From the NCBI GenBank assembly GCA_023382755.1, contig JAHDWR010000006.1, forward strand, positions 1 through 38,107: a stretch of 38,107 nucleotides of DNA, read 5' to 3'. The notes below the pieces were generated by a model. The model was not told the origin of the DNA. It made no database searches and was given only the letters and a program-made list of their open reading frames with translations. A program made the position numbers and the translations under genes. Below, in pieces: positions 29,369 to 33,311 of the stretch. Position 1 is the first letter of the stretch, and the number at the start of each line of letters is the position of its first letter. The DNA comes from Dehalococcoidia bacterium (lineage in GTDB: Bacteria > Chloroflexota > Dehalococcoidia > Tepidiformales > Tepidiformaceae).

Positions 29369-30427
29369 ATGCCTGATCTAGATCCGCAACTCGAGGGCCT
29401 GCGCACCGAGGCGCTGGCGGCGCTCGCCTCGGCTTCCGACGAAGCCGCGCTTGAACAGTGGCGCATCACCTACTTTGGCCGCCAGGATGGCCGCGTTTCC
29501 GCCCTCCTGCGATCGATCAAGGACGTACCTCCCGGTGAGCGTGCCGCCTTTGGCGCTGGCGCGAACGCCGTCAAAGCCGAGCTCGAAAGCGCCTTCGAGA
29601 GCCGCCAGGACGACCTCAAGGCGGCGGCGCTCAGGACGCTCACCACCGCCGCAGCCCTGGATGTCACGCTCCCTGGCCGCCCCCAGCCCCTCGGGCGGCT
29701 TCACCCGGTCACCCGGACCATGCGCGACTGCCTCGCCGCCTTCAAGGAAATGGGCTTCCGCGTCGCCGAGGGCCCCGAAGTGGAGTGGGCTCGCTACAAC
29801 TTCGATGCCGCCCGCATCCCCGAAGACCACCCCGCCCGCGACATGTGGGACACCATCTGGGTCAACACCCTCATCGATGGCCAGCGCAACATGCTCCTCC
29901 GCACCCATACGACCCCGAACCAGGTGCGCGTCATGGAGCGCACGCCCGAGCCTCCGGTCCGCGTCGTCGTTCCCGGCAAGTGCTACCGCCAGGAGGCGAC
30001 CGACGCCACCCACGAGTGGATGCTCACCCAGATCGAGGGCCTCGCCGTCGACGAGGGCGTCCGCATGACCGACCTCAAGGGCGTCCTCTACGGCTGGGCC
30101 CGCAAGATGTTCGGCGCCGACCGCAAGATCATCTTCCACCACAGCTACTTCCCCTTCGTCGAGCCTGGTGTCGAAATGGCGATCGACTGCTTTATCTGCC
30201 GCGGCAGCGGCAGCCAGTGCCATACCTGCCACGGGACCGGCTGGATCGAGATCCTTGGCGCCGGCATGGTCCACCCCGAAATCATCGAGAACGCCGGCTA
30301 CGACTCCTCGAAGGTCACCGGGTTTGCCTTCGGCCTGGGCGTGGAGCGCGTCGCGCTCCTCCGCTGGGGCATCGAAGACATCCGCAACTTCTACGCGAAC
30401 GACCTGCGCTTCTTGAGCCAGTTCTAG
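29369..30427 (+). CDS. pheS: Phenylalanyl-tRNA synthetase alpha subunit
   Basis: 'GRLHPVTRTMRDCLAAFKEMGFRVAEGPEVEWARYNFDAARIPEDHPARDMWDTIW', 'MLLRTHTTPNQVRVM', 'GTGWIEILGAGMVHPEIIENAGYD', 'FGLGVERVALLRWGIEDIR'. Confidence 0.97.
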   Translation: MPDLDPQLEGLRTEALAALASASDEAALEQWRITYFGRQDGRVSALLRSIKDVPPGERAAFGAGANAVKAELESAFESRQDDLKAAALRTLTTAAALDVTLPGRPQPLGRLHPVTRTMRDCLAAFKEMGFRVAEGPEVEWARYNFDAARIPEDHPARDMWDTIWVNTLIDGQRNMLLRTHTTPNQVRVMERTPEPPVRVVVPGKCYRQEATDATHEWMLTQIEGLAVDEGVRMTDLKGVLYGWARKMFGADRKIIFHHSYFPFVEPGVEMAIDCFICRGSGSQCHTCHGTGWIEILGAGMVHPEIIENAGYDSSKVTGFAFGLGVERVALLRWGIEDIRNFYANDLRFLSQF

Positions 30428-30433
30428 GGAGCT

Positions 30434-30461
30434 GCCAGTCGCCAGTCGTTAGTCGTTGGCA
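30434..30461. repeat. 7-bp-period repeat array, left flank (GCCAGTC GCCAGTC GTTAGTC GTTGGCA)
   Basis: Direct reading; consecutive heptads starting 7 bp after the pheS stop. Confidence 0.85.
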
Positions 30462-30486
30462 CTGACCTGGCCGCCCAGAAAGAGTT

Positions 30487-30858
30487 ATGAAACGTTTTCA
30501 GGACTACAAGGTATTCCGGGACTCTCACAGCCTGAACCTCCGTGTCTACGACGCGACCGGCAGGTTTCCGCGGCATGAGCTGTTCGGGCTTACTTCCCAG
30601 ATGCGACGGGCCGCGAGCTCCATCCCCATGAATATCGCAGAAGGTTCTGTGAAGTCCGAACGTGAGTTCAGGCAGTCTCTTCGTATCGGGCTTGGCTCCG
30701 CTGCCGAGCTTGAATATCAGTTACTGATGGCCAGAGACCTCGGGTACATGGATGAGTCCGAACACTCTGACTTGTCCGGCGCGGTGATTGAGATACGCAA
30801 GATGCTCACAGCCTTCATTCGAACCATCGACCGCGCCATCGAGTCGGCTGGGGACTAA
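30487..30858 (+). CDS. Four-helix-bundle protein (S23 / 23S rRNA intervening-sequence protein family)
   Basis: MKRFQDYKVFRDSHSLNLRVYDATGRFPRHELFGLTSQMRRAASSIPMNIAEGSVKSEREFRQSLRIGLGSAAELEYQLLMARDLGYM: hallmark 'FPxxExxGLTxQxRRAAxSIPxNIAEG' and 'GSxxELExQLxxAxxLGY'. Confidence 0.95.
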   Translation: MKRFQDYKVFRDSHSLNLRVYDATGRFPRHELFGLTSQMRRAASSIPMNIAEGSVKSEREFRQSLRIGLGSAAELEYQLLMARDLGYMDESEHSDLSGAVIEIRKMLTAFIRTIDRAIESAGD

Positions 30859-30880
30859 TGACTAATGACTAACGACAGGC
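30853..30880. repeat. 7-bp-period repeat array, right flank (GACTAAT GACTAAT GACTAAC GACAGGC)
   Basis: Direct reading; contains the stop codon of the four-helix-bundle gene and abuts the pheT RBS. Confidence 0.85.
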
Positions 30881-30890
30881 TGGAGGCACC

Positions 30891-33311
30891 ATGAAACTCT
30901 CCCTCAACTGGCTCCGCGAATTCGTCGACGTCGATCTGCCCGTGCCCGAACTCGCCCGCCTGCTCATCGACGCCACCGCCGAGGTCGAAAGCTGGGAGAC
31001 CATCGGCGCCCAGTGGGAGCCGGACAAGGTACGCGTCGCTCGCGTACTCTCCGTCGAACCGCACCCCAACGCCGACCGGCTCCGCCTGGTCACGGTCGAC
31101 GCGGGAAGCGGCCTCCAACAGGTCGTTTGCGGCGCCCCGAACGTTGCTTCCGGCCAGAAGGTCGCCTTCGCCACCGAGGGCGCACGTCTTCGCGACGGCC
31201 ACACCGGTGAGCCGGCAGTCCTGAAGCTCCGGCCGATCCGCGGCGTCGAGTCCGCCGGCATGGTCCTCAGCGAAAAGGAACTCGGCCTCAGCGATGAGCA
31301 CGAGGGCATCCTCGTCCTCCCGGACGACGCACCCGTCGGCCGCCCCCTTGTCGAAGTGCTTGGCGACGTCGTTTTCGACATTTCCACATGGGCGAACCGC
31401 GCCGACCTGCTCGGCGTGCTCGGTTTCGGCCGCGAGACTGCCGCCCTCACCGGCAAGGTGCTCCGCGAGCCCGATCGCACCTACTCCGAGTCCACCCGCA
31501 ACACCGAAGATCTGGTATCGGTCACCATCGAAGCGCCCGACCTCTGCCGCCGCTTCACCGCCTCGGTCATCGAAGGGGTCACCATCGGTCCCTCGCCACG
31601 ATGGATGCAGGAGCGCCTGCAAAAGGCGGGCATGCGGCCCATCAACAACGTCGTCGACATTACGAACTACGTCATGCTCGAGACTGGCCAGCCGCTCCAC
31701 GCCTTCGACTACGACCTCGTTCGCGGCAAGCAGATCGTCGCCCGGCGGGCTGTGCCCGGCGAAAAGCTCGTCACCCTCGATGGCGTCGAGCGCGAGTTCG
31801 ACGGCGAAATGCTCCTGATTTGCGATGGCGGCGGCCCGGTTGGCATCGCCGGCATCATGGGCGGCGGCAACAGCGAAGTGAGCGACTCCACGAAGAACGT
31901 CCTCCTGGAAGTCGCCAACTTCCGCCCCGGGTCGATCCGCCGCACATCCACCCGCCTCAAGCTGCGCACCGAGGCCTCGCTACGGTTCGAAAAGGGCATT
32001 GGCCCGGAGATGGCCGAGTACGCCCAGCGCCGCGCGCTCCACCTCTTCGAGCAGCTCACCGGCGGAAAGGTCGCCACCGGCCTGGTCGATGTCTACCCCG
32101 GCAAACAACCGCGCCGCACGATCCTCGTCGAGGCCGACCGCATCGCCCGCGTCCTGGGCATCGAAGTCCCGGTCGAAGATGTCCGCCGCATCCTCACGGA
32201 CCTCGGCTTCGTCTGCCATTTCACGCCGCCCGGCCGCTACAGCGTCCAGCCCCCGGACTGGCGCCCCGACGTGGAAATCGCCGATGACGTGATCGAGGAC
32301 ATCGGCCGCATCCACGGCTACGACAAGCTCCCCGCGACCATGCTCCGCGGGATGCTGCCAGAACCCGAGCCGAACCCGCTCATGGACTTGCGCGAGGACG
32401 TGCGCGACCTCGCCGTCGCCGCCGGCTTCCAGGAAGTCATCACCTACACGCTCACCGAGAAGGCGAAAATCGAGCGCGTCGTTTCCCCGTCCGACGTGGT
32501 CCGCACGAACCCGCTCGATGTGGTGAACCCGGTCGCCGCTCAGCACTCGTACCTGCGGACGACGCTCCGTGCTTCGGTGCTCGATACCTACGCCGCAAAC
32601 CGTCGCCACGCGGAAACCGGGCTGCGGCTCTTCGAAATCGGTTTCGAATACCTCCCCACCGAGGCGGATCTTCCCCACGAGCGGCCCGTGCTCTGTGCCA
32701 TCCTTGGTGGCCCGCGCGAGACCCGCTGGGGTCGCCCCGGTCCCGAGCGCCTCGACTTCTTCGACGCGAAGGGCGCCGTGGAGGCGATCTTCGACCACCT
32801 GGGTATTGGTGTGACCTTTGCCCCTCGCGTGGAATTCGGCCTGCTCGAAGGGCACACCGCCGAAGTCCGCGCGGGCAGGGAGACGCTCGGCCTGGTCGCC
32901 CAGGTCCACCCGGAGACCGCGGCCGCCTTCGACATCGATGAGCCCGTCTTTGTGGTCGAACTCTGGCTCGAAGACATGGCCCGCCACCTGCCCGAGCGCC
33001 CGGAGTACTTCCCACCCTCGAAGTTCCCCGAGGTGCGCCAGGACCTGGCCCTGATCCTCGATGGCGCGCTGCCCGCCGGCCGTGTCCTCGAAATCGTCCG
33101 CTCCCACCGCAGCAGCGGTGTCCGGATCCGGGCCGACGTATTCGATGAGTACCGGGGGCCGGGTGTCCCCGAGGGAAAGAAGTCGCTCGCCCTCCGCCTT
33201 CGCTTCCAGGCCGAAGACCGGACGCTGACGGATAGCGATGTGGCGAAGATCCAGCAGGGGCTGGTGGTACGCCTTGGCAAGGAGATCGGCGCGGTGGTGC
33301 GCGGCGGCTAA
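30891..33311 (+). CDS. pheT: Phenylalanyl-tRNA synthetase beta subunit
   Basis: MKLSLNWLREFVDVDLPVPELARLL..., 'NADRLRLVTVDAG', 'NNVVDITNYVMLETGQPLHAFDYD', 'KFPEVRQDLALILD', C-terminal FDX-ACB domain. Confidence 0.97.
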   Translation: MKLSLNWLREFVDVDLPVPELARLLIDATAEVESWETIGAQWEPDKVRVARVLSVEPHPNADRLRLVTVDAGSGLQQVVCGAPNVASGQKVAFATEGARLRDGHTGEPAVLKLRPIRGVESAGMVLSEKELGLSDEHEGILVLPDDAPVGRPLVEVLGDVVFDISTWANRADLLGVLGFGRETAALTGKVLREPDRTYSESTRNTEDLVSVTIEAPDLCRRFTASVIEGVTIGPSPRWMQERLQKAGMRPINNVVDITNYVMLETGQPLHAFDYDLVRGKQIVARRAVPGEKLVTLDGVEREFDGEMLLICDGGGPVGIAGIMGGGNSEVSDSTKNVLLEVANFRPGSIRRTSTRLKLRTEASLRFEKGIGPEMAEYAQRRALHLFEQLTGGKVATGLVDVYPGKQPRRTILVEADRIARVLGIEVPVEDVRRILTDLGFVCHFTPPGRYSVQPPDWRPDVEIADDVIEDIGRIHGYDKLPATMLRGMLPEPEPNPLMDLREDVRDLAVAAGFQEVITYTLTEKAKIERVVSPSDVVRTNPLDVVNPVAAQHSYLRTTLRASVLDTYAANRRHAETGLRLFEIGFEYLPTEADLPHERPVLCAILGGPRETRWGRPGPERLDFFDAKGAVEAIFDHLGIGVTFAPRVEFGLLEGHTAEVRAGRETLGLVAQVHPETAAAFDIDEPVFVVELWLEDMARHLPERPEYFPPSKFPEVRQDLALILDGALPAGRVLEIVRSHRSSGVRIRADVFDEYRGPGVPEGKKSLALRLRFQAEDRTLTDSDVAKIQQGLVVRLGKEIGAVVRGG

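Follow-up and report, generated by a model that had tools for sequence, protein, structure and literature searches.

To our knowledge, no function has been known for decades for the genes of the family PF05635, which encode S23-type (S23/IVP) four-helix-bundle proteins, and mobility of the intervening sequences that carry such genes has been suspected since the 1990s, without a mechanism. In the 23S rRNA of Leptospira and Coxiella, an intervening sequence of this kind consists of a single S23 open reading frame in about 430 bp with complementary, stem-forming ends, and it occurs sporadically at recurrent sites. The Coxiella element has GACAGAT heptads before its open reading frame, and their number varies among strains (Warrier et al. 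2016, PMC4990558). Heptamers have also been reported as isolated direct repeats, with neither a gene nor a mechanism attached to them, namely TAACTGA and STRR repeats in Beggiatoaceae, Cyanobacteria and Bacteroidetes (PMC4679880) and GGGAATC and GGGGATT in Xanthomonas and Nostoc (PMC4692102). The former report (PMC4679880) makes no use of the terms S23, four helix or intervening, and the latter describes no general association of its heptamers with insertion sequences or transposable elements (PMC4692102). Our search of the open literature, with subscription papers and preprints outside its range, found no paper tying S23 genes to heptad arrays generally; that association is far wider than the locus from which we started.

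The window analysed is a stretch of 38,107 nucleotides from a Dehalococcoidia bacterium, in which a unit of about 450 bp (about 0.45 kb) lies between the essential genes pheS and pheT (Table 1). We group this unit with the S23-encoding intervening elements because it shares with them the gene, the size and the complementary, stem-forming ends, and shares heptads with one of them. It differs from the rRNA elements in its location, which is between protein genes of an operon and not inside a 16S or 23S rRNA gene, and in its ends, which are tandem arrays that match each other and hold about five cores each.

Table 1. Parts of the pheS-pheT unit and its host genes, in coordinates of the window.
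Feature	Coordinates	Strand	Basis
pheS, upstream host gene	29369..30427	+	TIGR00468, 294 bits
Left end array, five 5-nt cores (GGAGC, CCAGT, CCAGT, TTAGT, TTGGC) at 2-nt spacing	30428..30460	+	Sequence; period-7 array; inverted match to right array
S23/IVP four-helix-bundle gene, 123 aa	30487..30858	+	PF05635, TIGR02436; relative of 2gsc and 2rld
Right end array, five cores (GCTGG, ACTAA, ACTAA, ACTAA, ACAGG), inverted relative to left	30847..30879	+	Sequence; inverted match; period-7 array
pheT, downstream host gene	30891..33311	+	TIGR00472, 724 bits

The first-pass annotation had described a four-helix-bundle gene bracketed by inverted heptads, and the description was borne out. The 123-aa product matches PF05635 (E=9.6e-32, 109.8 bits against a cut-off of 33.8) and TIGR02436 (109.7 bits against 24), and it is a sequence relative of the solved structures 2gsc and 2rld. 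The heptads GCCAGTC GCCAGTC GTTAGTC GTTGGCA occupy 30434-30461 and GACTAAT GACTAAT GACTAAC GACAGGC occupy 30853-30880, and the two arms are inverted, with complementarity of 79% over 24 nt and 88% over 17 nt. Six bases separate the pheS stop codon (TAG, 30425-30427) from the left heptads, the S23 gene terminates at a TAA codon (30856-30858) inside the first right heptad, with the right array overlapping its 3' end, and the pheT ATG follows at 30891. With the register set by other members, each arm comprises five cores in 33 nt, the outermost being degenerate in both. Tandem Repeats Finder reports these two period-7 arrays and no others in the 38 kb, and a genome search found no second occurrence of the left heptad pattern. 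A GGAG stands on either side of the unit, a candidate target-site duplication that may simply be ribosome-binding sequence. The profile search found no transposase in the unit, whose sole gene is the PF05635 gene; positions 30300-31000 gave no Rfam match, and no phage match was found.

That inverted heptad arrays might flank other four-helix-bundle genes had been proposed as a check, and arrays proved to be strongly tied to PF05635 across phyla. S23 loci were drawn from the family and class, from the phylum and from a genome collection spanning phyla; further loci came from 24 mixed-phylum genomes, with many of their copies, and from the phyla of Pedobacter and Pseudanabaena. The gene family is very common, 87 of 118 and 35 of 79 genomes sampled from these two phyla, respectively, having PF05635 above cut-off. 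The genome of the window holds five PF05635 genes, and within its family most such genes have inverted heptad arrays, the heptad being particular to each locus; cyanobacterial S23 genes bear arrays of the TTAGTCA type. Counts were made on 322 S23 genes with enough flank, with 621 stretches 700-900 bp away as controls. Period-7 arrays flanked 61% of the genes on the left and 66% on the right, against 3.4% of controls. When period 7 or 8 was admitted, with a slightly different score, 75-81% of S23 sides carried an array, at least one side did so at 296 of the 322 genes (92%) and both sides at 208, against 4.2% of controls. The best period nearly always agreed across the gene, with left/right pairs of (7,7) at 183 loci, (8,8) at 20 and (7,8) at 1. 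Many of these loci are interrelated and the counts are not all independent, although an effect this large does not rest on their independence. The architecture of an S23 gene between inverted arrays is thus general across many phyla.

Several variants accompany the common form. Roughly one tenth of S23 genes have inverted period-8 arrays, with the period matched on both sides (L083, L283, L315, L086, L225, L360 and others). A divergent second class of S23 proteins (FK.RT...GANYRA) occurs in the same genus and family (L036, L040, L042, L044, L047 and L051), with GATT-type heptads that are AT-rich within GC-rich genomes. A minority of PF05635 matches contain internal stop codons, as expected for elements that come and go. 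We also considered that S23 genes lacking heptads might be rRNA insertions, but a check of 49 such loci for eleven 23S rRNA sequence words found none of them, many of these loci carry 8-bp arrays, and the reading was dropped.

In many bacteria, heptamers outnumber all other longer simple repeats; they have been ascribed to polymerase slippage (PMC4679880; PMC4692102), and the arrays of two related plasmids (L440, L441) do differ in length by whole heptads. It is nevertheless extremely improbable that the arrays are ordinary slippage-prone repeats lying near S23 genes by chance, given their excess over controls, the agreement in period between the two sides and the locus-specific match of the arms when inverted. 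The heptad sequence varies by locus while the arms of one locus match, and the inverted arm match averages 17.8 within loci and 8.1 between loci, the best of 2000 permutations reaching 9.97.

The heptads follow the pattern T-N-R-G-Y-N-N, in which both arms share a 5-nt core and the 2-nt spacer is almost unconstrained. This pattern appears on both sides in the expected orientation at 93 loci, in the opposite orientation at 9 and in shuffled flanks at none. Over those 93 loci, arm-to-arm agreement at core positions 2, 3 and 5 is 0.78, 0.83 and 0.87, against 0.32, 0.66 and 0.51 for mismatched loci, and it equals the agreement within arms, though these positions are variable among loci. The spacer positions 6-7 agree poorly (about 0.51 within arms and 0.38 between). 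A protein that reads one core per subunit would select for a core common to both arms and leave the spacer free; pairing between the arms would constrain the spacer too. Arms most often have five cores (80 and 82 of 281, by a counting method that may err by one), each of the two solved S23 structures (2gsc, 2rld) contains five chains, and the S23 protein of X. campestris is described as a homopentamer (PMC4990558). These features suggest, somewhat more strongly than not, that the S23 protein binds the arrays; a pentamer would recognise them with one subunit per 5-nt core, leaving the 2-nt spacer unread, and each unit would then have ends matched to its own protein.

Similarity of cores and similarity of proteins are loosely correlated (Mantel r 0.28). 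The residue aligned with Glu58 of the window protein falls in the stretch NIAEG..R..[D].EF; where it is Asp, 40 of 43 units have C at core position 5, and where it is another residue, 29 of 97 do. The association holds when relatives are thinned at 60% identity (p about 6e-4) and is lost at 50%, and the independent pairs were too few for a test on the tree; a residue-base code can therefore not be taken as established from this strong raw signal. We regard the pairing of Asp with C as a lead towards the binding of five cores per end that we infer for the S23 pentamer.

The arms may instead owe their similarity to pairing in the transcript, where they would form a stem for excision by RNase III with no recognition by a protein. 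RNase III does cut the Coxiella S23 element out of 23S rRNA (PMC4990558), the arm duplexes are strong, with a median of -41 kcal/mol where GC-matched arms of other loci give -18, and folding of the window unit pairs its two ends (z -2.66). However, spacers would have to pair as well as cores, yet their agreement between arms is no better than within arms; when the order of the units is shuffled, identity between the arms falls only slightly, from 0.818 to 0.804, and the duplex excess specific to the register is small, about 2.5 kcal/mol. Base pairing was rejected on these grounds as the chief cause of arm similarity, since shuffling barely lowers either identity or duplex stability. An element explained at the RNA level alone would also leave the tandem arrays of about five and the movement of units without an explanation, and we consider this account unlikely, if the weightiest of the alternatives. 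The earlier suggestion that the arrays pair thus holds in part: a strong stem can form between the arms, yet register-specific pairing accounts for little of their resemblance; pairing in RNA or DNA may still contribute to the shape of the arms.

Comparison of the pheS-pheT junction in relatives bears on whether the unit moves. Within the family the unit is patchily distributed: eleven genomes have a gap of 3-16 nt, three (G012, G013 and G017) one of 30-79 nt and fourteen one of 447-511 nt with an S23 unit, G008 being a fifteenth genome with a unit there. In the genus of the window the site is occupied in G000, G001 and G004, while G002 and G003 have a near-empty gap of 11 nt, the kind of site in close relatives for which the first-pass annotation had proposed to look. 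G000 and G004 have the same unit, with S23 proteins 92% identical. Between G001 and G000 the PheT N-terminus is 95% identical but the S23 protein only 52%, and at the DNA level the end of pheS (92%) and the start of pheT (85%) enclose an insert of 56% identity; the G001 unit has the heptad core TTGGC in place of TTAGT, and its own arms again match each other. A different unit between flanks this much better conserved indicates that the site was refilled or exchanged precisely, which rules out strictly vertical descent at this junction. Vertical inheritance throughout, set out beforehand as the observation that would speak against mobility, is thus contradicted by the near-empty sites and by the exchanged unit in sister species.

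In the tree, the S23 proteins of this site form one clade together with a single outside member, L003, and their identities correlate with those of PheT (r 0.40, p 0.002). It seems that S23 lineages each keep to certain sites. L003 (G002:C31), the sole relative of the clade found elsewhere, resides in a genome whose own pheS-pheT site is near-empty.

The single clade and the correlation with PheT would also suit a regulatory, non-mobile operon gene whose product binds leader repeats and controls itself or its neighbours, descending vertically with losses. The ring of TRAP, an RNA-binding protein, reads one short motif per subunit and leaves spacers of 2-3 nt unread, and a ring protein reading repeats across free spacers would resemble it. 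The S23 protein is unrelated to TRAP, which has an RNA target and a single array and is not mobile, and array binding by S23 is itself putative. Because the right array is inverted, a reader of sense-strand RNA would see one arm only. Near-identical PheT beside dissimilar S23 at the same site in G000 and G001, near-empty sites in sister species and the loss of homology at the arrays in units at unrelated sites all argue against this account, which appears quite improbable.

Homology spanning both arrays was seen in only two pairs of units located at unrelated sites. L137 and L150, in one genome and 88% identical, match from the first left heptad to about the last right heptad; when L150 was used as query together with flanking DNA, the second copy matched only over bases 4-420 of 454, and no target-site duplication is evident at L137. 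In the cyanobacterial pair L164 and L346 (85% identical), homology ends within 2-21 nt of the array edges. A further candidate jump, L126/L128, was dropped for its common downstream flank, and L144/L220 was excluded as lying at a contig end. The presence, absence or exchange of units at a fixed site, together with the association of arrays with the whole family, support the proposal that the compact gene with its inverted arrays behaves as a mobile element, and that the unit is mobile and bounded by its arrays is very probable.

The S23 unit resembles insertion sequences and MITEs in its inverted ends, its compactness and the occurrence of one site both with and without it; it differs in that it is without a transposase and in that its ends are tandem arrays whose core varies by unit. 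The resemblance invites the view that the unit is a MITE-like passenger moved by a separate, trans-acting transposase, with S23 incidental. The unit does lack a recognisable recombinase, and 83 arrays without an adjacent S23 gene occur in the 1.4 Mb of DNA fetched, although some of them adjoin uncounted S23 units. Y1 transposases, the sole candidate tested, were considered as sharing the unit ends in an association of the REP/RAYT type and were rejected: taken as controls in the same genomes, their genes had arrays on 2 of 60 sides, and several S23-bearing relatives are without a Y1 match. Cores that differ from unit to unit would be hard for one trans-acting enzyme to read, and S23 is the constant partner of the arrays over a very wide range of bacteria, which makes an incidental S23 improbable. 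Another mobile system with a distantly related four-helix bundle is that of the diversity-generating retroelements, whose Avd protein is matched by the S23 protein at E=2.8e-5 (bAvd) and E=2.3e-5 (DivGenRetAVD); the score of 24.6 bits is, however, well short of the cut-off of 80, and the neighbours here are pheS and pheT, with no reverse transcriptase.

The reading we favour, and think fairly probable, is that the unit is a minimal mobile element with heptad-array ends that are probably recognised by a pentamer of its S23 protein. The protein would gather both ends for transfer; whether S23 is needed for mobility at all is a point on which we are evenly divided. Cutting and joining would be done by host or trans-acting enzymes, to which we assign these steps because we know of no catalytic activity of S23. 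In the transcript the arms could pair as a stem and RNase III could cut the element out, freeing the pheS and pheT messages, which would make an element tolerable inside operons such as this one; by analogy with the rRNA element, such excision is about equally likely to occur or not.

The observation has a bearing on repeats and genes described elsewhere. The reported heptamer repeats, like the arrays of the unit, are short tandem heptads in intergenic DNA, and TAACTGA reads TCAGT-TA on the other strand, a core of the type seen in S23 arrays; we propose that these repeats derive from S23 units. S23/IVP has been listed as associated with CRISPR adaptation modules. On the plasmid pPg_01 of Pseudanabaena galeata an S23 gene with long heptad arrays (L443) stands between cas6 and cas4, and a unit at this position may explain that listing.

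Taken together, S23 units could constitute a bacterium-wide class of mobile elements with ends of about five heptads or octads, each read by its own pentamer, ends and protein co-evolving as a private end code, with the rRNA intervening sequences a special case and heptameric repeats such as TAACTGA and STRR their footprints, a generalisation for which we see the balance as level. The rRNA elements and the array-ended units may form one new class in which the end code matches the protein, a reading that can be tested. For a family long without a known function, the array-ended unit offers a mechanism open to test, in which a pentamer sits on five cores, and a candidate residue-base code; such units suggest a possible common origin for several long-unexplained heptamer repeats, and they may account for the presence of S23 genes inside unrelated operons, as between cas6 and cas4.
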